Shown one piece after another: positions 7,621 to 53,556 of a stretch of 64,000 nucleotides of DNA. The stretch is taken from the IMG/VR virus record IMGVR_UViG_3300025876_000020, positions 1 through 64,000 of that record, one strand, 5' to 3'. The notes beneath the pieces are model-generated. The model was given only the letters and a program-made list of their open reading frames with translations. It was not told the DNA's origin and did not search any database. Positions within the stretch are counted from its first letter, which is position 1. Each line of letters starts with the position of its first letter. The DNA comes from a virus. The position numbers and the translations under genes were made by a program.

Positions 7621-10600
7621 CTAAGGTATCTCATCTGGCTCTGTTGATTCATCAGCAGAGCGAGGATAAGGCTCATCGTTAATAAAACGTATATTACCAC
7701 CTATTATATCACCCAGTAACTCAAATACGTTCGAACCTCCAGGAGGGTCGTTTTTGACTATATCAATTCTGTGTAAACCACTTGTAATATCAATTGTAAC
7801 CAATCGAGGACGCTCTCCTCCGTAATTAATATATGTTCCTTGTAAAACATCATCAACATATACGTAAAAATAATCATCATTAGCAAAATTATATAAAGTT
7901 ACATCTGTATCATCGCCTATGTTATCAACCCACATAGTATACATTAAACTATTAAAACTGCTGTGATATGCGTTGTTGAGTCCTGTATTAATTGCTCCTT
8001 TAGAAATCTCTGACCACTCTCCGTTAAAGTCACCGGGATCACTTAGCCGATCCGTTCTCATCTGCGCTGGTGTAGTACGACTCTGATTATTACTACATAA
8101 AACGTTCCAGAATGGTACAGTCTCCGGAGCCACAGTCTGTATTGAACCATCACTATACTGTATCGAGTTTGAAGATAGTGTATTAGTTTCAATACCACCT
8201 AACACTTCAATATTTTCTAGTGTAATATCCTGCTGTAACCCAATTTCAACATCACCGTTTAAATAATTAAACGGTAGGGTCTGATCGATACCATCAAGTG
8301 TGGCAGATAGATTGTCAGTTACAGATAACGATGTATCTAGAACCTCGTCTGGTATAGCTTTAATAACATAAACAGTACCTGTAATAGATACATCAGAATT
8401 AGTTACACCACCTACTAAGCTTTTCTCACCCGGGGTTGTTACTCTACTTAATATAGGCCGTGGCGTTTCATGATTACCGTACGGGTCTCCTGTTAAAAAT
8501 TGGTCACTAGCACCTGCTGCCATTATTTCGTTTTTATCTGTAACTGCAATCATAGCAGTTTTGCTATTATATCCAGTTAAATCAAAGTCTTTATAAACCG
8601 TACCTTTTGACATTCTAACCTTACCAAAGGTTGTTTTCTGATTTTTATCACCTCTACCTAGCTGACCGTATCCGTTATAGCCAGTTGACCATATTTCACC
8701 ATCTTCGTTAAGAAACGCAGCAAACGCGTATGTTGCATCATGTCCTTTTATTTTAACAACGTTTTGTGGGTTACCTACAGGTGTTTGTGGTGAGTTATAA
8801 TCTACCGTATTACCAGTACCTAATTGACCATAATTGTTATGACCCCACGTCCTTAAGGTACCGTCCTGAGTCAGAATCATTACTGAGCATGAACCATCTC
8901 GAGATAACGATATATCCTGTACCTGTTGCCCACCAAGATCAACAAGCTGGAAGGTAGATTTGTTGGTTGTATTACCTATACCTAACTGACCCACACCATT
9001 AAAACCACAAGAGTATAAACTACCATCACTAGTTATTGCGTATACGCTTTTTGTTGTGGTGCCATTTGATATTGCTATATCTACCACATTTCTACCCACC
9101 ATACTACTAACCTTCTTAAATTGATCAAGCTTATTATCGTTACCATGTCCTAATTGACCCTTATCATTATAGCCACATGAATATAGATCACCGTTACTAT
9201 CTATCAAGAAGCTACAACTATAATTATTAGCAGCAAACACCTTTACCGGTTTAGCACCAGCTGTTAAGAAATCTAGAGGTACTTGTACCGGTGATGTTCT
9301 ATTACTCTCATCATTTAGACCTAATTGACCGTATCCATTATAACCCCATGTCCATAGGTTATCATTCTCGTCAATTACCAAACAATGTGCAGCGTTATTT
9401 TGTCCAACACTTACCGTAAAATACTTAGCGTTACTACCGAAGCCGTTAACCCGTTGAAACTTGTTTCTAGTTGTAGTATTTCCTAGTCCTAATTCCCCAT
9501 GACCGTTATACCCGGATGAGTAAATTCGACCTTTATCAGAAATAACGAATACGCATGGATCGTCTGAACCCGCGGCCATATAATCTACTACCTTTTCATT
9601 TGCGTTTGTAAATGGTAGCTGTATTTTATTAAATCCGGCGAGGTAGTCCCGGGTGTCCCCCATTATCTCTTCACCACCACCATAACCACTAGCAAATAGA
9701 TTACCATCCTTGGATATGTAGAATGAAGTTCTATAGAAAGTACTATTAGTAACCCTTTGCATTTTCGTTCCAAAGGACGCAAAGGAGTCGTCTATATCAC
9801 TACTAAGACCATTGACGATGCTATAATCTGCCGTATTTGATGGATCACTGGTAGTGCCATATAGAGTTTTATTTCTATAATCCGGTACTTGAAAGTTAGT
9901 AGCGTCACCACCATAACTCGAGCCGATAGTATCATATAAATCAGGGTAATCAACACTAGCGTAGGTTTGACCGTCACATACTAGCCACCCTTGAGGAGCA
10001 GTAATAGATGTAAAAGGTATAACACAACCTACTGGAACTGGTCCATTTTCGGTATTAAATAAAGCGGTAGTTGGTAGTCCAGCCGGCGCCCACTGGAGAG
10101 TACCGTTACCATTAGTTGTAAGAACATTACCATTTGCACCACTGTTTGTAGGAAACGAGTATGAAGGTATACCTAATTTAAGGTTCTGAGGTAAATCTAA
10201 GTAATCAAAACCTCTAGTATCAATTTTATCTATATTAATAGTTGCTTTGAGAGCTACTCTACCCTCAGTATCTATCTCTAAAGACTCACCTATTGAGCCT
10301 AAGTTAAAATCACCTGCATCAACGGTTCCATCATTTACTGTTGATACTGTCTCCCATACACCATCTCCCTTAAAGGCGCATAATGATAGGCTACTAGAAT
10401 CAAAAGCCATATCACCTTTTACCGCTTCAGTAAACGTCGCAGCTGGTCCACCATCACTACCTAAAAACTTATTACCTACGATAATTCCACCGGTATCGCT
10501 ACCATTACCAATATATAGCCTCTCTGTATCTGTAGTATATCCAAGCTCACCTTCAGATAGGATTATTTGCTGCCTATCTGTATTCGTGCCTCGTCTTACT

Positions 10601-10647
10601 AAAAGTTTAAGGAGAGTGTTTTCTAATATTTCAATTTTTTTTGCCAT
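7621..10647 (-). CDS. Tail fibre: tail-collar domain split by an RCC1 beta-propeller (1008 aa)
   Basis: Residues 10-60 (KLLVRRGTNTDRQQIILSEG, then GELGYTTDTERLYIGNG) match the N-terminal fold of phage major tropism determinants. Residues 205-262 are the first half of a phage tail-collar domain (QGWLVCDGQTY, then NFQVPDYRNKTLYG). Residues 310-735 hold seven or eight RCC1 units, each about 50 residues, such as LWTWGYNGYGQLGLND and IWSTGYNGYGQLGRGD. The collar appears to resume after them (SITGTVYVIKAI). The last 200 residues contain a PA14-like beta stretch (DDYFYVYVDDVLQGTYINYG). RCC1 blades usually form a seven-bladed protein-binding disc. Here the disc probably projects from the fibre as a receptor-binding head. 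No promoter box lies at the start, so it is probably co-transcribed with the 384-residue fibre gene upstream. Confidence 0.85.
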   Translation of the reverse strand: MAKKIEILENTLLKLLVRRGTNTDRQQIILSEGELGYTTDTERLYIGNGSDTGGIIVGNKFLGSDGGPAATFTEAVKGDMAFDSSSLSLCAFKGDGVWETVSTVNDGTVDAGDFNLGSIGESLEIDTEGRVALKATINIDKIDTRGFDYLDLPQNLKLGIPSYSFPTNSGANGNVLTTNGNGTLQWAPAGLPTTALFNTENGPVPVGCVIPFTSITAPQGWLVCDGQTYASVDYPDLYDTIGSSYGGDATNFQVPDYRNKTLYGTTSDPSNTADYSIVNGLSSDIDDSFASFGTKMQRVTNSTFYRTSFYISKDGNLFASGYGGGEEIMGDTRDYLAGFNKIQLPFTNANEKVVDYMAAGSDDPCVFVISDKGRIYSSGYNGHGELGLGNTTTRNKFQRVNGFGSNAKYFTVSVGQNNAAHCLVIDENDNLWTWGYNGYGQLGLNDESNRTSPVQVPLDFLTAGAKPVKVFAANNYSCSFLIDSNGDLYSCGYNDKGQLGHGNDNKLDQFKKVSSMVGRNVVDIAISNGTTTKSVYAITSDGSLYSCGFNGVGQLGIGNTTNKSTFQLVDLGGQQVQDISLSRDGSCSVMILTQDGTLRTWGHNNYGQLGTGNTVDYNSPQTPVGNPQNVVKIKGHDATYAFAAFLNEDGEIWSTGYNGYGQLGRGDKNQKTTFGKVRMSKGTVYKDFDLTGYNSKTAMIAVTDKNEIMAAGASDQFLTGDPYGNHETPRPILSRVTTPGEKSLVGGVTNSDVSITGTVYVIKAIPDEVLDTSLSVTDNLSATLDGIDQTLPFNYLNGDVEIGLQQDITLENIEVLGGIETNTLSSNSIQYSDGSIQTVAPETVPFWNVLCSNNQSRTTPAQMRTDRLSDPGDFNGEWSEISKGAINTGLNNAYHSSFNSLMYTMWVDNIGDDTDVTLYNFANDDYFYVYVDDVLQGTYINYGGERPRLVTIDITSGLHRIDIVKNDPPGGSNVFELLGDIIGGNIRFINDEPYPRSADESTEPDEIP

Positions 10648-10661
10648 GGTTAGTTAAATGT

Positions 10662-11816
10662 TTATGATGTTGGAGGTCTAAAGACTGGTATTGCTACAAC
10701 ACCTGTTGTGCCACCCATGTCCATTTGAATAAATCCAGCTGATGTTAGGCTGGCAATATATGTGGTACTACCTACCGTTGAGAGGGTATCAATAATTGTT
10801 TGATCATTATAATCGGTTTGATCTAACCCACCGTTAAATGCACCGCTAAGAAACGGAACATTAACTCCACCCGATATAACGGTTGTAACCGTGCTCTCTG
10901 CTGAGAGTGGTAGGTCTAAAGAGCTTGAACTACCAGCTAACCTACCGTATTGATCGAAGGTAATGCTATCAGTAGAACGTATCTCTTGATTACCGAGAAA
11001 TAATGAATCTATGGTTAGTATATCAGTAAATGTTGTATCCGGTTGTTCAACACTACTAATAGTGAAGAATGAAGCATCAACACCTTGTATTACCGTTTCT
11101 AGAGTCTCATCCAATGGACTAACGCGTAACCCTTTACCTATAAAAACAGAGCTCAAAGAGCTTGTAGAAACAACACCTAGTGGTATATCTGTTAGAATTA
11201 ATTTGTTTCCATTAAAGCCAAGATAGGAAGTTTCAACATCCAGCTCAATAACCTCCCCACTACCACCGGTCAGCCCTCTACCTATAGTCGTTGACGTTAT
11301 ATAGGTTTCATCAATACAGTCAAGTTTTAATTGTAGCGCGTTACTTGACTTCTCTATAGTCACATCATCAACGTTAATAGATAATCCGTCAGCTATACTA
11401 AAATTAATTCCACCCGTTGCTAGTACAATACTACTATCAATTTGTGTGGTTGTTATACAACTATCTTTAAGGGTAAGTTCGTTTTGAGTATTATATTCAA
11501 TAAAAACAGGATCAATCTTTGTACCTATAAACTCCCAATCAGCCTCTGTTATGGGAGTTGTAGAAGTAAGCCTATAAAGCTTACCATTCTCATAAACAAC
11601 ATCTCCCTTTGTAGCAGTGGATATTGATGTTCTTGGTTGATTAGAGTCATAAACTTTATTTCCTATAATATTACCACCAGCAGTTATACCATCACCCACC
11701 CATAGCCTACTATAATCGGTTGTATATCCTAACTCTCCTTGTTCGAGAATAGTGATAGATCTCTGACTATCAGTACCTCTTCTAACTTTTAGCTTTACTA
11801 TATCTACTTCTGGCAT
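10662..11816 (-). CDS. Tail fibre with Mtd-like N-terminus (384 aa)
   Basis: Residues 5-55 (IVKLKVRRGTDSQRSITILE, then GELGYTTDYSRLWVGDG) match the N-terminal module of the adjacent RCC1 fibre closely, so the two genes share an attachment domain. The rest is serine/threonine-rich beta sequence typical of trimeric fibre shafts (SLSSVFIGKGLRVSPLDE). No C-type lectin fold or variable region is visible. The ATG at 11816 lies 6 nt after the stop of a 15-codon leader frame that carries the promoter, so translation probably depends on re-initiation. The downstream fibre gene follows after 14 nt. Confidence 0.75.
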   Translation of the reverse strand: MPEVDIVKLKVRRGTDSQRSITILEQGELGYTTDYSRLWVGDGITAGGNIIGNKVYDSNQPRTSISTATKGDVVYENGKLYRLTSTTPITEADWEFIGTKIDPVFIEYNTQNELTLKDSCITTTQIDSSIVLATGGINFSIADGLSINVDDVTIEKSSNALQLKLDCIDETYITSTTIGRGLTGGSGEVIELDVETSYLGFNGNKLILTDIPLGVVSTSSLSSVFIGKGLRVSPLDETLETVIQGVDASFFTISSVEQPDTTFTDILTIDSLFLGNQEIRSTDSITFDQYGRLAGSSSSLDLPLSAESTVTTVISGGVNVPFLSGAFNGGLDQTDYNDQTIIDTLSTVGSTTYIASLTSAGFIQMDMGGTTGVVAIPVFRPPTS

Positions 11817-32231: not shown

Positions 32232-34751
32232 TTAACCTCCTGCTAACTCCTGGAAGTTTGCGTCCGTTCTTGTTGCATAGAAGTTGACTAAGATAAATTC
32301 AGCTGTCTTAACTGGCTTAAGATAAATATCAACTACCATCTCGTTTTGGTCAATAACCTCTGGAGTGTTGTTTCTTTCATCACATACAATCAAGTAATCG
32401 TATAAACCATCATCAACCTTAATTCTTTCGAACGTAGGTGTAAGAGTGTTAACAACTCGTGATCTTGTAAACAGTGTATTGTTCTCAAACAAGAAGAACT
32501 TCATAGTAGACTTTGTAATCTTCTCAAGATATAAGAACGTTCTTCTTACGTTAATTCTGTCAAACGCACTTGGCTTCTTAAGCAGTGTCTTCTGCCCGAA
32601 GAATACATTACCTCTATCTTGGAATGTAGCAATCGGGTTAAGATTAACGCTATATAAGTCATCACGTTGTCTCTGGTTAGGTGTTACAGCAATGTCAACC
32701 GCATCATTAATAATACCGCGATTGAATCCAGCAGGTGCACCCCATGGTCCGATTTGAGCATCTACAGAAGCCATCTTAGCAGAAGCAAATCCAGAAGATG
32801 GTACGTAGATAAACAATCCGGAGTAACTATCGTATACCTTCATGAAGTTTGCAAACACTGTAGCATACGAGGTATTAGCTAATTCAAACTGATGTCTTAG
32901 TGCCCAGTATACGTCTGTGTAGAAGTTCTTTGACTTATCATCAAGAATCTTACTATCCTTACCAGATACTATCACTTGGCGAATTGGGTCAGCAATGTAT
33001 AGTACATCACCTCTTCCACCGTCCTTAGTAGGTCCGCAGAATGTATTAAATCTATTGAAGATTGCCATGTAGTTGTCTCTAGCATCTCTACCTAACGCCT
33101 CTAAGTCTCTAGATGTTCTTAGCGCTTCGATAGCAGGAGTTGTTCTTGTATCATCAAACCCTAGCTCCTTAAGACCAGCCTCAGCAGTCTCGGAGTAAGT
33201 GTTAATGGTACCCAATCCAGCCTCAGCAATAATATCGATGTTAAACTTCTCATCGTTCTTAACACGCTCTAGAGCTCTGTCTAATTTAGCAGGAACTTTA
33301 CCAATCTTCTTATCAGCGAGATTAGTCTCACCATATACACCAATCGGGAATAGTGAATCTGCTAGCCCTAACGTACTAGTTAGATATGCTAGGTCATCAG
33401 TTGTACCTACACCGGCAATGTCTAGCGATACATCACCAGAACTAACTGCATCAACAAGTGACTGTGTAAGAACACGGATCTTTTTCTTAGGAGTACCATC
33501 GTCATTAAGCTGAATACCTGCAATCTTATCAGATAAGAAGGGGTTAACTAAAATATCAATGTTTCGTGAGCTGTTTTCCTCTGTCTCAAGGAAGAAGTTA
33601 ACAGGTGCACCACCATTCTCGGCATTTCTCTGCCTGTACTGACCAATTGAACCGTTGTATCCTTCTTCAAGTAGGTAATCCAATCCATAAGCGTCCTTTG
33701 AGAATACTGATTGTCTTATTTTAAATACTCCTACGTTGAGAGTATCATCAAACTCACGTGGAGAAATATCATAAGAAGCGATTCTGTCCTCCATTACTTG
33801 CGAGACGGAGTTAGTAGCAGGATTATCACCAAATTCTGGAGTAGCTGTTAGAGAGAATTCAAATCTTGTATCTGGGATTGTAGTAAAGTTAGTACTACCA
33901 GCATCACCTGCACTTCTTGTAGTGGTTTGAATACTGTTAATTGCATCAAAGTTACTAGCAGGGTTAATGTTTGTATTATCAGCTAAGCCGATGTAGTAGC
34001 CATTAAATTGACCATCCACAATAGTTTGTCCCTTGTTTATAACAATAACAGCTGCACTTGAAAGAGTTTGTAGAGAAGTGAAATCTTCAGATGAACCTGC
34101 AATATTAGACCACCCACCTGTAAACAAATCACCACTTGAGAGTCTTAAGTATTGCTCTTGTGTAATTTCGAATTGCTTAGGCTTACCAATGTAAAATGCT
34201 TCATTCCTACTAAAGTCATTAACTGTCTCTTGAGTAGCATCAAAATCAGAAAGATAAGCAGTAGTAGACTCGTAACGAGGATTCTGACCTACACCGTTAT
34301 CAATCCACTGATCAAATTCATCAGTTAAGTCTGTATATAAAATATCAGCAGAAGAAAGGCCGTTAGTTTCAGCATCACCATCAATTGGTCCAAATACTGT
34401 GATCTCAGCAGTATCTCTTTTACCAATAGCTGCTGGATACGCAAGAACGCCTACCTTGGATCCAAATCCCTGACCTTCTTCTTCACCGTAAGGTAGTCTA
34501 TTAACTAGTACCCGTCCGGTAGAGTTAAGAGCAGCTTTTACCGTATGGTAAAAGTATCTCTCAGCCGGTGTTCTTGGCATTCCGTAAATCTGCTCAAAGT
34601 CTGTAATACCAGTTACACCAACCACTTCATCGGTTGGTCCTTGATTCGAAAAGCCTGTAATATATGTTGTTGTTCCTTGTGAAACTGTCCGTAGTGATAA
34701 ATCACTCTCTCTGATTTCAACTCCTGGAGATTGTATTGTCCTTCTAGCCAT
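32232..34751 (-). CDS. 18: Tail sheath protein gp18-like (839 aa)
   Basis: The N-terminus (SPGVEIRESDLSLRTVSQG, then TTTYITGFSNQGPTDEVV) and the C-terminal domain (FERIKVDDGLYDYLIVCDER, then NEMVVDIYLKPVKTAEFILV) are the conserved ends of myovirus sheath proteins. The T4 protein is 659 residues; about 180 extra residues lie in the middle, so the outward-facing protrusion domains are probably enlarged. Six subunits per ring contract to drive the tube into the cell. Codon use looks more even than in neighbours, as for a highly expressed gene. Confidence 0.95.
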   Translation of the reverse strand: MARRTIQSPGVEIRESDLSLRTVSQGTTTYITGFSNQGPTDEVVGVTGITDFEQIYGMPRTPAERYFYHTVKAALNSTGRVLVNRLPYGEEEGQGFGSKVGVLAYPAAIGKRDTAEITVFGPIDGDAETNGLSSADILYTDLTDEFDQWIDNGVGQNPRYESTTAYLSDFDATQETVNDFSRNEAFYIGKPKQFEITQEQYLRLSSGDLFTGGWSNIAGSSEDFTSLQTLSSAAVIVINKGQTIVDGQFNGYYIGLADNTNINPASNFDAINSIQTTTRSAGDAGSTNFTTIPDTRFEFSLTATPEFGDNPATNSVSQVMEDRIASYDISPREFDDTLNVGVFKIRQSVFSKDAYGLDYLLEEGYNGSIGQYRQRNAENGGAPVNFFLETEENSSRNIDILVNPFLSDKIAGIQLNDDGTPKKKIRVLTQSLVDAVSSGDVSLDIAGVGTTDDLAYLTSTLGLADSLFPIGVYGETNLADKKIGKVPAKLDRALERVKNDEKFNIDIIAEAGLGTINTYSETAEAGLKELGFDDTRTTPAIEALRTSRDLEALGRDARDNYMAIFNRFNTFCGPTKDGGRGDVLYIADPIRQVIVSGKDSKILDDKSKNFYTDVYWALRHQFELANTSYATVFANFMKVYDSYSGLFIYVPSSGFASAKMASVDAQIGPWGAPAGFNRGIINDAVDIAVTPNQRQRDDLYSVNLNPIATFQDRGNVFFGQKTLLKKPSAFDRINVRRTFLYLEKITKSTMKFFLFENNTLFTRSRVVNTLTPTFERIKVDDGLYDYLIVCDERNNTPEVIDQNEMVVDIYLKPVKTAEFILVNFYATRTDANFQELAGG

Positions 34752-46206: not shown

Positions 46207-49200
46207 TTATGCCAGCTTGAGAATGTACAGCCTCACGTTACGGTATTCTAAGGTAGCATTAGCGCCAAATCCGGTGGCTTGTTCATCTGCAAATATATTA
46301 ACAGTCTGTGATGATGTACTGGTTATTAGAAATGTTGTTGATCTTGACAAAAAGGAACTATTTGTAGATTGAGTTTGTTCATCTGTTTCGTTGATAATAA
46401 AAATTGCTTTGTCAACACCATTGTGTCTTGTTATAACGTTGAAGAAATCCGTACTATCATTATCATCTTCCTTATACTCACCACTGTGAGTTATTTGGTA
46501 TGTACCCGCACCTAGTGTCACAACCCCACCACTCACTGTACCGATACCATCCGGATCAATCTCCTCTGTGATTGGTATAACGCTATCATTGGCAATTGTT
46601 CCAGACGCGTTTGAATACTGAGCAAACTTAATCGACGCAGTACCAACTACTGCTCCATTAATAGTATCACACGTAATATCACCACCAGATATTTGAACTC
46701 TAGCGCCAAACTTAGCATCATACCATACCTCTGTACCTAACTCATTAACATTTCCAAACCATTGAATCTCTTTATCAATATCATCAGCGTATGTACCGAT
46801 ACCAGTAAAGTTAATATAGCTACCGGTAGTTTCAAAGTCAGAGTCAAAAAAGCAACTGGTAACAGTGAGTCCCTTGACTGTTACATCAACACCGGAAGCG
46901 TTTTCAACATCAATAGCATCACTGTTTTGTACTTGATTCCAAGTACAGGCTGTAAAGGTGTTTTGATATTTAGTATCTGCAATAGTAACAGTAGTACCAG
47001 TGAAGATACAACCGATAAATGTTGTCCGTACATTTCCTACTCTAACATAACCTTCTCCAGATCCGGGGTTAGTAATACCCTGACTTAAAAAGTTACACCC
47101 TGTAAATACGTTGTCAATAGATCCGCTATAAATATTAGCAGTAAATCCTCCCTCCCGTAAAAGACAGTTTGTTATATTATTGTAATCTGAATTACCTTCT
47201 ATTTGAATGCAATTACCAGTACGGGATGTATCTAGTTCATAACTAGCTTCCCCTATTCCCCATTTTGAAACTATACAGTTAGAGACTACTTGATAATTAC
47301 CAGTCCAAAGTTTTATACCATAGTTCTCACCGCCTGCATTCTCACCAAAATGATGTATCTTGCAATTAATAATTGTATTTCCATAACCTCGTGAGAGTAT
47401 GCCACAAGTTAAACCATCTGCTAAGTCAGCAGACAGTCCTCCGTCAATGTGAACGCTGTCAACAACTGCACCGTCAGTAGCGGCATTTAAAATTAGTACG
47501 GCATTGTTCCATGTAGCATCTACAGATTCGATAGCTTTTAAAGTTCCGTTCTGAAATCGTATTGATTTCGATATATTAAGTCCTCCACCAATACCAATCT
47601 CTGGCTTAATTGCGTAATAACCACCCGCAAGGTCAACCGTTACTTTACTTGCGCCAAGTACCTTACCAGACTCATTATCATCTACAATTAAACTACTAGC
47701 AGCGTCAATAGCGGCTTGAATAGCAGCGCGATCATCAGTAGCACCATCACCTATAGTACCATAGTCACGAACATCGATTATTGTTTTTGCACCAACATAA
47801 CCCTCGACGTAATCTTCAATGCTTTGTGATGTAGCTAAAGAAGTAACACTAGCGTTGTTAGCAATATCATCGATGATCTCGGTAGCGGATAGTGTTGGCT
47901 GGCTATTAAACTGTAGAGCCGTTCCCGTCGCAACACCGTTTAAAATTTGGTAACTATCATTAAACTTAGCATCCATCCAAGCGAGATTGCCTTCTCCAGA
48001 TGTATTACCAATCCATTGAATTTTCTTTTCTACATCCGAAACATAACTACCAGCACCGCTTACTAGAAACTCTATAATTTCAGATCGTCGTCCGTTAAAT
48101 CTATTTGAAGAAACAATAAGACCACCGCAATTATAGTCTGGTTGATTGGTATTAATCTCAATAAAATTATTAGCAGGATCTGCAGTCACGTCAGTATAGT
48201 TTTTAAACAGACAGCTATTAATAGTTAGTGACTCAACCGGGTCATATAACTGGTCATCGTTAAGAGTAACATTACCACCTACAAACGTACAACCGTTTAG
48301 GTTATTATCACTCCCACCTTCAATATATACATTAACCTTTCCAGCTGTATCATCCGAACCACCTTGGCCAAATGTGCAATTAGATACGACATGCTCTGCT
48401 CCGTTAATATATAGTGGATATAGAGCCGTATCACCTTTACAGTCAATTAACTTATTCTGAAAGCCTTCCATTGAAAAGGATCGGGCTGTTCGTAAACTAC
48501 TATACTCTCTACCCTGCTCAGTAAACAGCCATTCTGTAAAATCACACTTCTTTATAACACAACCCTTATTGGCCTGTGGTGCTGGTGATAATTCGTCACC
48601 AATCCTGAGACCGTAAAGGGGAAAGTGGATACCTCTACAATTCGTTACGGTAACACGATTACATAAAATATGTACAAGGTTAGCATGACGTGTAAATGAT
48701 CCTGGTGTACCTACAACGTCTTCCGTAATACCACCGTCAAAATTAATATCTATAACTTCACTCTCTTCAGCACCGGTGGTAAGTGTTAGTATAAAGTCAC
48801 CTGTAAAACCAGGTAAGGCTAATAATCTACCATTAGTAAATCTAAGTTTTTTATTTATATTGAGTGTTGAGCCGACAGCGTACGTTTTACCGTCTAGATT
48901 AACTTCAATTGGCCGGTCATCAAAATATACAGCTGGGTCTGTGTCTAGAGTACCAGCATGGGTGATTGCGGCTTGTATCTCTGCTTGATCGTCTTGTACT
49001 CCGTCACCAGCAGCTCCAAAATCTAATACACTAATAACCGTACGTAATTTGTCTTGTAATGTAGTATCAACCGCTCCAACACCATCAGGTGTATAAGCTA
49101 TAGAAGCTGCATCAATATCTACGTTAGACAGAGATACACTATTCCAGGTACCGCTGGTACTATCATATCTCCAGCTCCTGTTATTTTGTGTATATATATA

Positions 49201-49236
49201 TCCTGGTGTTGGTGAACTTGGAAAATTGATAGCCAT
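46207..49236 (-). CDS. Tailspike with two pectate-lyase-type beta-helices (1009 aa)
   Basis: After the anchor (MAINFPSSPTPGYIYTQ, SWRYDSTSGTW) come two full beta-helix domains. Each opens with the pectate lyase 3 signature: VLDFGAAGDGVQDDQAEIQA near 90 and VRDYGTIGDGATDDRAAIQA near 490. Each closes with a matching strand (KKIQWIGN/MDAKF, then KEIQWFGN/YDAKF), so the unit was duplicated. The last 140 residues (IKFAQYSNASGTIANDSVIP, then ITHSGEYK) resemble a TNF/C1q jelly roll. Such spikes bind or cut surface polysaccharide. No acidic catalytic pair could be assigned. Confidence 0.85.
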   Translation of the reverse strand: MAINFPSSPTPGYIYTQNNRSWRYDSTSGTWNSVSLSNVDIDAASIAYTPDGVGAVDTTLQDKLRTVISVLDFGAAGDGVQDDQAEIQAAITHAGTLDTDPAVYFDDRPIEVNLDGKTYAVGSTLNINKKLRFTNGRLLALPGFTGDFILTLTTGAEESEVIDINFDGGITEDVVGTPGSFTRHANLVHILCNRVTVTNCRGIHFPLYGLRIGDELSPAPQANKGCVIKKCDFTEWLFTEQGREYSSLRTARSFSMEGFQNKLIDCKGDTALYPLYINGAEHVVSNCTFGQGGSDDTAGKVNVYIEGGSDNNLNGCTFVGGNVTLNDDQLYDPVESLTINSCLFKNYTDVTADPANNFIEINTNQPDYNCGGLIVSSNRFNGRRSEIIEFLVSGAGSYVSDVEKKIQWIGNTSGEGNLAWMDAKFNDSYQILNGVATGTALQFNSQPTLSATEIIDDIANNASVTSLATSQSIEDYVEGYVGAKTIIDVRDYGTIGDGATDDRAAIQAAIDAASSLIVDDNESGKVLGASKVTVDLAGGYYAIKPEIGIGGGLNISKSIRFQNGTLKAIESVDATWNNAVLILNAATDGAVVDSVHIDGGLSADLADGLTCGILSRGYGNTIINCKIHHFGENAGGENYGIKLWTGNYQVVSNCIVSKWGIGEASYELDTSRTGNCIQIEGNSDYNNITNCLLREGGFTANIYSGSIDNVFTGCNFLSQGITNPGSGEGYVRVGNVRTTFIGCIFTGTTVTIADTKYQNTFTACTWNQVQNSDAIDVENASGVDVTVKGLTVTSCFFDSDFETTGSYINFTGIGTYADDIDKEIQWFGNVNELGTEVWYDAKFGARVQISGGDITCDTINGAVVGTASIKFAQYSNASGTIANDSVIPITEEIDPDGIGTVSGGVVTLGAGTYQITHSGEYKEDDNDSTDFFNVITRHNGVDKAIFIINETDEQTQSTNSSFLSRSTTFLITSTSSQTVNIFADEQATGFGANATLEYRNVRLYILKLA

Positions 49237-49339: not shown

Positions 49340-51160
49340 TTAATAACCTGTTGCTTGCCAAAAAACCCTCCCAACACCTGCACCAGATGTACCTTGATAT
49401 CCAATAATAGAAAATGCTGACAACGATAAATTTGCTATACCGCATAATTCAGCAGCACTACTATAAGTTCCATCTTGTGCAGTACAGTTAACACCTACTA
49501 TAGCATTGGGGAACGCGCCAGAAAGAGTAACATTTACTGAACTTGAATTCACATTTACAGTTCCATACTTTATAATTAAGCCCCCTGGTAGGGTATATGA
49601 TCCCTGCTCACCTATATTAGCAATGCCTGAAGTATTGCTAGGTAGGTTTGATGATGTAATTCCCCAACTAGCACTATTAGCACTTACAGTTGTATATGTG
49701 CTATCCCAATTTTCAATACTTTGAATAGGTTGACTGTTATCTTTAATAATTGATCCATCAGTATCAATAACATTTAGTGGAGAACTATAGGTTGTTGATC
49801 CTAAAATATTATTTACATCATTAGTAAAACTAACAGCTCCACCATCCTCAACCTCTATATCTTCAAAACCAACACCTGACCCACTAAGTGAAATAGGATC
49901 AAATAAGTATAAATTACTATCAGCATATGATCTAATATTCCACCTGTCACTATCTATACAAGTTAAATCACCTATTCTTGCTACACTAGATTGTGAGAGA
50001 AAAATACCAGCGTCACAGTTTTTAATTATATTACCAGATAAGGTACCTGCTCTAGGTGATAACAGAGTACCATGATCGGTTATACTTATTGCTTCACTCA
50101 GTGTTGCAAGAGGTCCTTTACCACACTCTTCTATGACGGATTCATACCATGTTCCCATACTATTTGTAGCTACTTGAAGACCATGATTATCACACTTATA
50201 AATTGTATTACGCCTTCCTAGTAATTGTGATGTTGAATTCACTTTTATACCAAATCCACCTGACCCGTCGACGGCATCTTCAGTTATATATGAAACACTG
50301 GTATCAAATATACGTAAATAACTACCATTAATTGCTTGAATACCGTTTCCAAAGCCAAAAAAGCTACAACCTACGCTGTAAAATTTACCTTGATCGATTA
50401 CATTAACAGCTCTAGTAATTGATTCTGTGTCTTTATAGATCAAAATATCCTCTATTCTGGCTGTACCAAATGGTACATTAAATGCATTAATTTGGTTAGA
50501 AGGACTAGTAAACTTAAACTTAACTGAATATTTACCTTTAAGCATGTCTAGATCATCTGCTGACACACCAGTAAAATCTGTACTTTTAGGATATGTAACA
50601 CTCGGTGAACCATCAAAAGGTCTGATAAATATATTGTCTCCATTATCGTGCGAAATATCTAAAGGACTACTAAATTCATATTCACCAGGCCTAATTTGAA
50701 TATAAATTACTGCACCATCTCTCATCTTAAGATATTGCACATATTGAATTGCAGTCTTAATACTAGTAAAATGATCACCAGGCTGATCACCAACAATAAA
50801 TGTCTCTCCATGAGAAAATTGTGATACATGAAATATTACAGTATCTCTCTTACATGACAGCATACTGCATGCTGGGTTTCCATCCAAAGTTTTACACCAT
50901 GTATAGAAGCCATCGTAAGTCATAGCTGCTTCAGCACTACTATCATTGTTAAATGTACCTAGATCCTTTACCGTCCAATCACCGCTAGCACTCTGAACTG
51001 TTGTATACGCTGAGTTCCAGTCAGCTGATGAAGTCGCGACAATAGTATCACCACCATCACCTGCACTTTCCCATGAAACTCCTGTCCACCTCCAACTCTT
51101 ATCGTTTTGTGTATGTATTTCACCAACTGTAGTTGGTACTGGGAAATCTAACTTAGCCAT
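49340..51160 (-). CDS. Tailspike with right-handed beta-helix (606 aa)
   Basis: It has the anchor (LDFPVPTTVGEIHTQ, SWRWTGVSWESA), one W/Y/V repeat, then a region related to the spike at 43722-46112 (SAEAAMTYDGFYTWCK, then IQIRPGEYEF). A beta-helix follows at 220-440 (SVGCSFFGFGNGIQAING, then IKNCDAGIFLSQSSVARI). Another W/Y/V repeat (WDSTYTTVSANSASW) leads to a C-terminal beta domain (GSYTLPGGLIIKYGTVN) seen at the end of many phage fibres. It is probably a receptor-binding spike. Confidence 0.8.
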   Translation of the reverse strand: MAKLDFPVPTTVGEIHTQNDKSWRWTGVSWESAGDGGDTIVATSSADWNSAYTTVQSASGDWTVKDLGTFNNDSSAEAAMTYDGFYTWCKTLDGNPACSMLSCKRDTVIFHVSQFSHGETFIVGDQPGDHFTSIKTAIQYVQYLKMRDGAVIYIQIRPGEYEFSSPLDISHDNGDNIFIRPFDGSPSVTYPKSTDFTGVSADDLDMLKGKYSVKFKFTSPSNQINAFNVPFGTARIEDILIYKDTESITRAVNVIDQGKFYSVGCSFFGFGNGIQAINGSYLRIFDTSVSYITEDAVDGSGGFGIKVNSTSQLLGRRNTIYKCDNHGLQVATNSMGTWYESVIEECGKGPLATLSEAISITDHGTLLSPRAGTLSGNIIKNCDAGIFLSQSSVARIGDLTCIDSDRWNIRSYADSNLYLFDPISLSGSGVGFEDIEVEDGGAVSFTNDVNNILGSTTYSSPLNVIDTDGSIIKDNSQPIQSIENWDSTYTTVSANSASWGITSSNLPSNTSGIANIGEQGSYTLPGGLIIKYGTVNVNSSSVNVTLSGAFPNAIVGVNCTAQDGTYSSAAELCGIANLSLSAFSIIGYQGTSGAGVGRVFWQATGY

Positions 51161-51597: not shown

Positions 51598-53556
51598 TTA
51601 CTTACTATCACCTTCAACTAAGTAGTCATCACCGAACGTGCCAATAGTTGTGCCTCTGGACTTAGCACCAACAAACATTACAGGGTCGGTACCTGTACCC
51701 CATCGCGACGCTGTAAATCCAGTTGATCTATCATCGTGAGCGGAGTAGGTTGTTAATCTATTGGCAATTTCTATGGCGTAGTCGTTTGTATTAGGAGATA
51801 CAACCAGTTTATCACCATCCCAATATAAACCTTCTGTAATCTGGTAGTTGTCTGGTAGCTCACCCCCATCTCGTAGACTACCGGTAACCGCAATACTATC
51901 TACACCAGTCCATGAGCCAACACCTTCTGCTGTCTTGGTAAACTGTGGTGATACATTTTCAAAGATGCACCCGACAACTACAACACCCTCAACAGTCTTG
52001 CCTGCCTCTGTTGCTTTGAAGCGGATAGCAGTATCAACACTAGTCGATGGTAACCCCTGCTGAACTGAGCTATCAACGAACTTGCATCCAGTAAATGAGT
52101 TCTTGAAACCGTTCTCAATTAACACTTCACCATTATCGAAGTAGCAACCTGTAAACATATTGCCTACTGCGTAAGTGCCTGCCACTGTGTCCGTCTTTAA
52201 CCAGACACATACATGACCCACGCCCTCGGTAGGTGCAGTTACAAAATGGCAGTTGTGCCAAAGATTAGCAGATCCTTTATCACTCTTCATCGGATACAAA
52301 CCATGTGAACAATTAATGTTTGAGAATAAGCAGTCGTTAGTATCAACACTTAAACAAGTTGATGTCCTGTAGGTATAATCCTCAATACCATTATTGGTTG
52401 GAACTGCATTTGTATCTGCATTTGTCCACTCGTTAAGGATCATGTTTTCAAACCTACCACCTTGAACGCTCACAATGTAGAGACCGAACTCCCTCATGTG
52501 GATCATGTTGATGTTGGTGAACAAGCATCGCTGACACTGAGTAGCGTAGATACCATTTGATCTCTTGCTGCTGTCAGAGACATCTAATCCGCAGTCGATG
52601 TCGAGGTCGTGAATGATTAAGCGTTCAGTAGCGAAGCTGGAGACATAGATAACACATGAGTCTGTGCCGTCACCAACAGGAAAGTCAGTAGTAACAATTA
52701 AGTTACCGTTGCCGAACTTGATCTTGCGGTTGATGGTAAGTGTTGATGTCACCCTGTAAAGTAATCCACCCAAGTCTACTTGGACGTATCCAGCACCAAC
52801 ATCAGAAAATTCAGTATCACACAGTGACTCGGCGTGATCAATGGCTGCTTGTATTGCTGCTGTGTCGTCCGTAGTTCCGTCACCCACTGCACCAAAGTCT
52901 GCTGGCGTAATACGCTCACGTAGCTTGGCTCGGACTGTGGTTACTTGCGCGCCAGTACCAGCCGGAGTGTATGATACAGCGGATGCATCCGCAGCAGTTG
53001 CAACTGTTGATACCCATTGGCTCGAGCCACCGACTTCAACGTAATAAACATACAAATTACCGTCACCAGTATTAAACCACAAATCACCGTCTGATGGGGT
53101 AGATGGTACAGTCTCGGAAGTTGTTACACTGGCACCACTACCTATAGATGCGATAGATGGTGTAACCGTTACCCATTGCAGCGTAGTATTATCTGCGTAA
53201 TATATATACAATACAGCTGTATTAGTATTAAACCAAAGATCACCTGCACTTGGATCTGCTGGTGCAGTTTCTTGAGATACAACATTAGCTCCTCCACCCT
53301 CAGCATTCGAACTAGTTGATACTGTTACCCACTGATCAGTATTACCATCACCATAGAAAACTGACAATACAGCAGTATTATCATTGAACCAAAGATCACC
53401 AATACTCGGATTTAGAGGAGGAGTTTCAGAAGTCGCAATAACAGTACCTTCACCTACACCTAAAGTAGTCCATGAATTGCCAGACCACTTCCATGTTTTT
53501 AATCCCGTATTATAAACTTGACCTACTGATGGGTTTGCTGGAAAATTTAAAGCCAT
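51598..53556 (-). CDS. Tailspike with three GDLWF units and pectate-lyase-type beta-helix, cut by an in-frame stop (652 aa)
   Basis: The anchor (LNFPANPSVGQVYNT, TWKWSGNSW) is followed by three consecutive 45-residue units (SIGDLWFNDNTAVLSVFY, SAGDLWFNTNTAVLYIYY, SDGDLWFNTGDGNLYVYY). The beta-helix opens with ADFGAVGDGTTDDTAAIQAA near residue 215. The protein stops inside a conserved C-terminal domain at SRGTTIGTFGDDYLVEGDSK, where a TAA (51598-51600) precedes 128 in-frame sense codons. The full product would be about 781 residues. Its base composition is higher in G+C than that of neighbours, suggesting a more recent arrival. Confidence 0.8.
   Translation of the reverse strand: MALNFPANPSVGQVYNTGLKTWKWSGNSWTTLGVGEGTVIATSETPPLNPSIGDLWFNDNTAVLSVFYGDGNTDQWVTVSTSSNAEGGGANVVSQETAPADPSAGDLWFNTNTAVLYIYYADNTTLQWVTVTPSIASIGSGASVTTSETVPSTPSDGDLWFNTGDGNLYVYYVEVGGSSQWVSTVATAADASAVSYTPAGTGAQVTTVRAKLRERITPADFGAVGDGTTDDTAAIQAAIDHAESLCDTEFSDVGAGYVQVDLGGLLYRVTSTLTINRKIKFGNGNLIVTTDFPVGDGTDSCVIYVSSFATERLIIHDLDIDCGLDVSDSSKRSNGIYATQCQRCLFTNINMIHMREFGLYIVSVQGGRFENMILNEWTNADTNAVPTNNGIEDYTYRTSTCLSVDTNDCLFSNINCSHGLYPMKSDKGSANLWHNCHFVTAPTEGVGHVCVWLKTDTVAGTYAVGNMFTGCYFDNGEVLIENGFKNSFTGCKFVDSSVQQGLPSTSVDTAIRFKATEAGKTVEGVVVVGCIFENVSPQFTKTAEGVGSWTGVDSIAVTGSLRDGGELPDNYQITEGLYWDGDKLVVSPNTNDYAIEIANRLTTYSAHDDRSTGFTASRWGTGTDPVMFVGAKSRGTTIGTFGDDYLVEGDSK

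Follow-up and report, generated by a model that had tools for sequence, protein, structure and literature searches.

The window analyzed here (64,000 bases from a virus record that is 66,844 bases long) encodes a tail fibre or adhesin in which an RCC1-type propeller interrupts a collar domain of the type known from T4 gp12. Orthologues with an empty site at the same position, compared by sequence, place this propeller inside the collar domain and not behind it. The protein likely serves a marine, T4-like myovirus as a tail fibre and is built on the plan of gp12, with the RCC1 propeller as putative binding head.

The fibre protein exceeds the Pfam cut-offs for Mtd_N (26.3 bits) and Collar (24 bits) with the scores given in the table. 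The matches to the RCC1 families begin at about residue 307 and comprise WD40_RLD (PF25390; 195 bits, cut-off 150), RCC1 (PF00415; 135 bits in six stretches, cut-off 21.7) and RCC1_2 (94 bits). The Mtd_N score agrees with an earlier reading of this end as Mtd-like and relates the protein to Mtd-type tropism determinants; Mtd_N is the conserved N-terminus and probably provides the attachment to the virion. A C-type lectin match was absent from the fibre protein in Pfam, and no reverse transcriptase was found in the 66.8-kb record, which is possibly a fragment. DGR variation was rejected on account of this missing reverse transcriptase.

Table 1. Features of the fibre gene and its direct neighbours in the window (residue numbers refer to the fibre protein).
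Feature	Residues	Position	Strand	Evidence and remarks
Tail fibre/adhesin gene	1-1008	7621..10647	(-)	1008 aa; order Mtd_N, shaft, collar with RCC1 inside, C-terminal module
Mtd_N domain	17-51	10495..10599	(-)	Pfam, 37.6 bits; also whole-record search
Collar part 1	207-261	9865..10029	(-)	Pfam Collar, 66.1 bits; match to T4 gp12 (1OCY/1PDI); AF2 pLDDT 72-92
Inserted segment	about 278-745	8413..9816	(-)	Without counterpart in nearly all orthologues
RCC1 propeller, eight four-strand units	about 293-735	8443..9771	(-)	Pfam, AF2 model, PDB matches, unit profile
Last collar strand, TVYVIKAI	758-765	8353..8376	(-)	Orthologue conservation; post-insert profile
Conserved segment past last strand	767-810	8218..8350	(-)	Orthologue profile; AF2 pLDDT 69-89
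C-terminal module	811-1008	7624..8217	(-)	Family-less; swapped between orthologues
Downstream gene, 70 aa		7393..7605	(-)	Kept next to the fibre gene in most tested relatives
Upstream neighbour, also Mtd_N		10662..11816	(-)	Syntenic with the fibre gene

A baseplate wedge gene is located upstream of the fibre gene, and the tail sheath and the large terminase are encoded further along. Compared with named T4-like phages, the large terminase reaches about 38% identity at most, the nearest among the matches listed being Sinorhizobium phiM9. The sheath protein (32232-34751, minus strand) has 839 residues and its match to sheath families is confined to the last 215 of them. Three genes on the minus strand (46207-49236, 49340-51160 and 51598-53556) with pectate-lyase or beta-helix matches are probably tailspikes. 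The small downstream ORF, for which Pfam gave no match, is possibly an accessory protein or chaperone. The upstream Mtd_N gene is devoid of a collar in the window; many relatives (L067, L098, L118 and others) carry an own collar on an ORF at about the same upstream place, so that two adjacent genes seem to differ between relatives in whether they have a collar.

Orthologues were searched among viral contigs, the queries being residues 1-305 of the protein and alignments of the family. Many contigs were found, 38-54% identical in the N-terminal part, and their match to the fibre protein stops at about residue 277. In these orthologues the collar motif PDY...LYG is followed by a short loop and then by the strand LFIIKA and a conserved segment, the loop between the two collar elements comprising 6-49 residues in the other aligned orthologues versus 494 in the window protein. 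A profile-based count in marine viral contigs yielded 92 distinct ORFs with both collar parts (for one of them, in L125, an adjacent collar gene may have been counted instead). Their spacer has a length of 11-60 residues in 85, is about zero in five and contains a large insert in two, and an RCC1 unit was detected in none of the 92. Since orthologues without insert are accompanied by conserved neighbour genes, with synteny kept in some relatives, it is one and the same locus that occurs both empty and filled. Across the orthologues I762 and K763 are invariant or nearly so.

Could RCC1 simply have been appended behind a complete collar, the match of the last strand being coincidental? The Pfam Collar model is already complete before RCC1 starts, the second half gives no Pfam match, and when the two collar sets were compared profile against profile, only the first collar part was aligned. 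Domain matches alone therefore cannot decide between insertion and placement behind the collar. However, a profile made from the last strand onward of 63 orthologues, with the window protein left out, matches the window protein at E=3e-20, where the best among 1000 shuffles gave 3e-5, and the empty-site orthologues have this strand directly behind their short loop, which makes coincidence hardly credible. The collar profile matches at E=3e-27 (best of 1000 shuffles 5e-4). Two AF2 models were made, one of the full-length protein and one of the propeller with an RCC1-only alignment. The full-length model reproduces the collar with confidence on both sides of the insertion site (pLDDT values in the table; the part behind the site starts at residue 761), whereas the RCC1 region and the C-terminus are of low confidence, in the propeller region because the fusion is absent from all homologues. 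Both the location of the RCC1 repeats between two collar halves and their origin by domain insertion, as proposed in the preliminary description, are borne out by these data together with the last strand common to orthologues and gp12-like proteins.

An assembly chimera, in which RCC1 DNA of another virus was joined into a collar gene, has to be considered as well, because the RCC1-carrying collar fibre is a single example from a metagenomic contig and viral contigs often contain RCC1 genes. This origin would however need two in-frame crossovers exactly at the insertion site of the family. Both collar parts belong to the same family and the same reading frame. Moreover, the GC content of the insert (0.391) is within that of its flanks (0.37-0.40), and two orthologues, L013 and L014, carry other inserts of 265 and 663 residues at the same site; a chimera is thus very improbable. 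The first 145 residues of the latter two inserts are 48% identical to each other and unrelated to RCC1, and no Pfam family scored above its cut-off in them. A recent foreign origin by base composition was rejected, the insert resembling its flanks in GC.

The nature of the insertion site becomes apparent from T4 gp12. The collar matches gp12 structures (1OCY, 1PDI, 5IV5) both as a single sequence and as a profile (profile A6, E between 8e-7 and 8e-6), and the two collars are homologous. In T4 gp12 the collar comprises residues 342-397 and the C-terminal part is receptor-binding (PMC3004832). The match to gp12 ends at the collar; a knitted zinc-binding head of the gp12 type was not found in the window protein, its slot being occupied by RCC1. 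One gp12 and most other collar proteins examined possess a final strand of the xxYxIK type after their own head insert (the gp12 of the T4-like phage EAWsc9 ends after the head with ...NMSLNYIIKIHY), and the window protein likewise has such a last strand after a variable insert, in accordance with PF07484. Since gp12-like heads are located between the same two collar elements, RCC1 takes the position of a gp12-type host-binding head. Further similarity to gp12 concerns the last strand (xYIIK), which follows the head in both, and the location of the gene near baseplate genes. In contrast, the head of gp12 is a small intertwined zinc-binding fold and that of the window protein a whole RCC1 propeller; the latter protein additionally has the Mtd_N N-terminus and about 240 residues beyond the last strand. 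The variability of this slot is already known and the cargo, RCC1, is new.

The propeller is composed of the units 296-340, 353-399, 407-455, 467-512, 521-568, 576-621, 630-676 and 685-732. Its AF2 model from the RCC1-only alignment (m5589383529c3) has a pLDDT of 79 with core blocks above 90 and a pTM of 0.79, and the closest solved structures found by Foldseek are UVR8, HERC2, HERC1, RPGR and RCC1, with Z scores up to 33 (to HERC2 and UVR8). In the model the fold is therefore of RCC1 type. The rmsd to the seven-bladed structures amounts to 4-5 A over about 320-345 residues, apparently more than would be expected with equal blade number. In free-standing RCC1 proteins of phages (L001, L003 and S-SRM01) six full units are flanked by two halves that complement each other, which gives seven blades, and the first and last units of the window propeller are fuller than theirs. 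Unit 8 is visible in the model and by eye, without detection by the unit profile. Seven to eight blades had initially been counted and a closed seven-bladed propeller expected: the RCC1-type propeller is retained, and "seven-bladed" is probably wrong for this protein, which comprises eight units. Repeat sequence and fold class are common to the window propeller and UVR8, HERC2, RPGR and RCC1, which differ in that they are cellular, have seven blades and bind other partners. Over its whole length the model is matched by structures of phage proteins; the Littlefix tail fibre and PollyC gp12 are among the closest viral models. PLL-type lectin and other propeller matches of the full-length model were discounted, the propeller region having low confidence there.

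The C-terminal module had been described as PA14-like. This identity was rejected as being without sequence support: no Pfam family was found up to E=10 and no phage match either, the best PDB match has E=0.6, and the AF2 pLDDT is mostly under 50. The C-terminal modules of the orthologues (window protein and L013-L132) form clusters unrelated to one another, with 39, 10, 5 and 2 members, plus two singletons, and from this it follows that the protein end is also exchanged.

The presence of RCC1 in phages is in itself already known: it ends T7-type tail fibres and occurs in virions. In PollyC (gp12) and SeaP1 (SeaP1_12) it follows the N-terminus of a T7 tail fibre, and these proteins together with Littlefix gp88 resemble the window protein in using RCC1 as adhesin module of a tail fibre; there RCC1 is distal on a fibre without Collar match and not inside a collar. 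In several named phages genes of RCC1 proteins adjoin tail fibre genes. RCC1 proteins were found by mass spectrometry in virions of phage W70 (phrog_4219; PMC11370258) and phage GAP32 (GAP_001; PMC5259590), but they are described as separate proteins and no collar fusion is described for them. On the bacterial side, bifidobacteria of the bee gut carry RCC1 repeats on proteins anchored in the cell wall (PMC4449606), and a predicted pilin of Saccharibacteria has them as well (PMC12206443). The receptor-binding protein of phage phi11 (Gp45) is a homotrimer bearing three propellers (PMC4901313); it is comparable in presenting propellers on a trimeric receptor-binding protein and differs in that these are five-bladed, not of RCC1 type, and combined with a helical stem and a C-terminal tower.

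The combination of RCC1 and collar is rare. Viral contigs and a sample of named phages together gave 216 ORFs with RCC1, none of which had a collar. Nowhere in the phage collection is 80% of the fibre protein covered, and none among the matches listed spans both the collar and the main RCC1 repeats. Bacterial and archaeal genomes were scanned for the collar family and revealed no relative. In the open literature no description of RCC1 together with a tail collar was found; several seeming matches turned out to be numbers of RCC culture strains or names of rcc genes. The fusion may also occur in close relatives. Viral contigs further contain giant ORFs consisting nearly completely of RCC1 repeats, namely in L004 (1180-13860), L189 (2-9307), L145 and L179, with 4227, 3102, 2132 and 2049 residues, respectively.

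Regarding function, RCC1 might be a spacer, a shield or a contact inside the baseplate, with the host being bound by the C-terminal module or by another tail protein. The assignment of orthologue C-terminal modules to unrelated groups is the usual mark of host-binding tips; residues 811-1008 could be the true tip instead, and the record holds the tailspike-like genes mentioned above. Against this stand the slot itself, which is the head position of gp12, and the distal location of RCC1 in tail fibres of other phages, and we consider a mere spacer or shield unlikely. Homology and position lend good support to a putative receptor-binding role of the RCC1 head, with the caveats that the confidence of the propeller is low in the full-length model and that only one RCC1-carrying example is at hand.

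In the fibre proposed here the N-terminus would fix the protein to the virion, and shaft and collar would form a trimer. The chain would leave the collar after the PDY/LYG strand, build the whole RCC1 propeller and return as the last collar strand. The two ends of a propeller are near each other, so it can occupy a loop without breaking the collar. Three exposed discs around the trimeric collar would then bind a glycan or protein of the host surface, similar to the phi11 receptor-binding protein. It is conceivable, and we propose it only tentatively, that the collar of this marine phage family acts as an exchangeable one-loop socket for whole domains, in which the collar, and not a sharing of strands, closes an eight-bladed RCC1 propeller and three such discs sit on the trimer.

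The fibre joins two elements that were previously separate, the gp12-type collar with its head-carrying loop and the RCC1 propellers, which turn up repeatedly in phage genomes. The label "chromosome condensation" given to RCC1 genes of phages is misleading. The orthologues with empty site provide a before/after pair for testing the swap of whole receptor-binding domains in phages. They also make it plausible that adhesins are the products of many phage genes labelled "RCC1".
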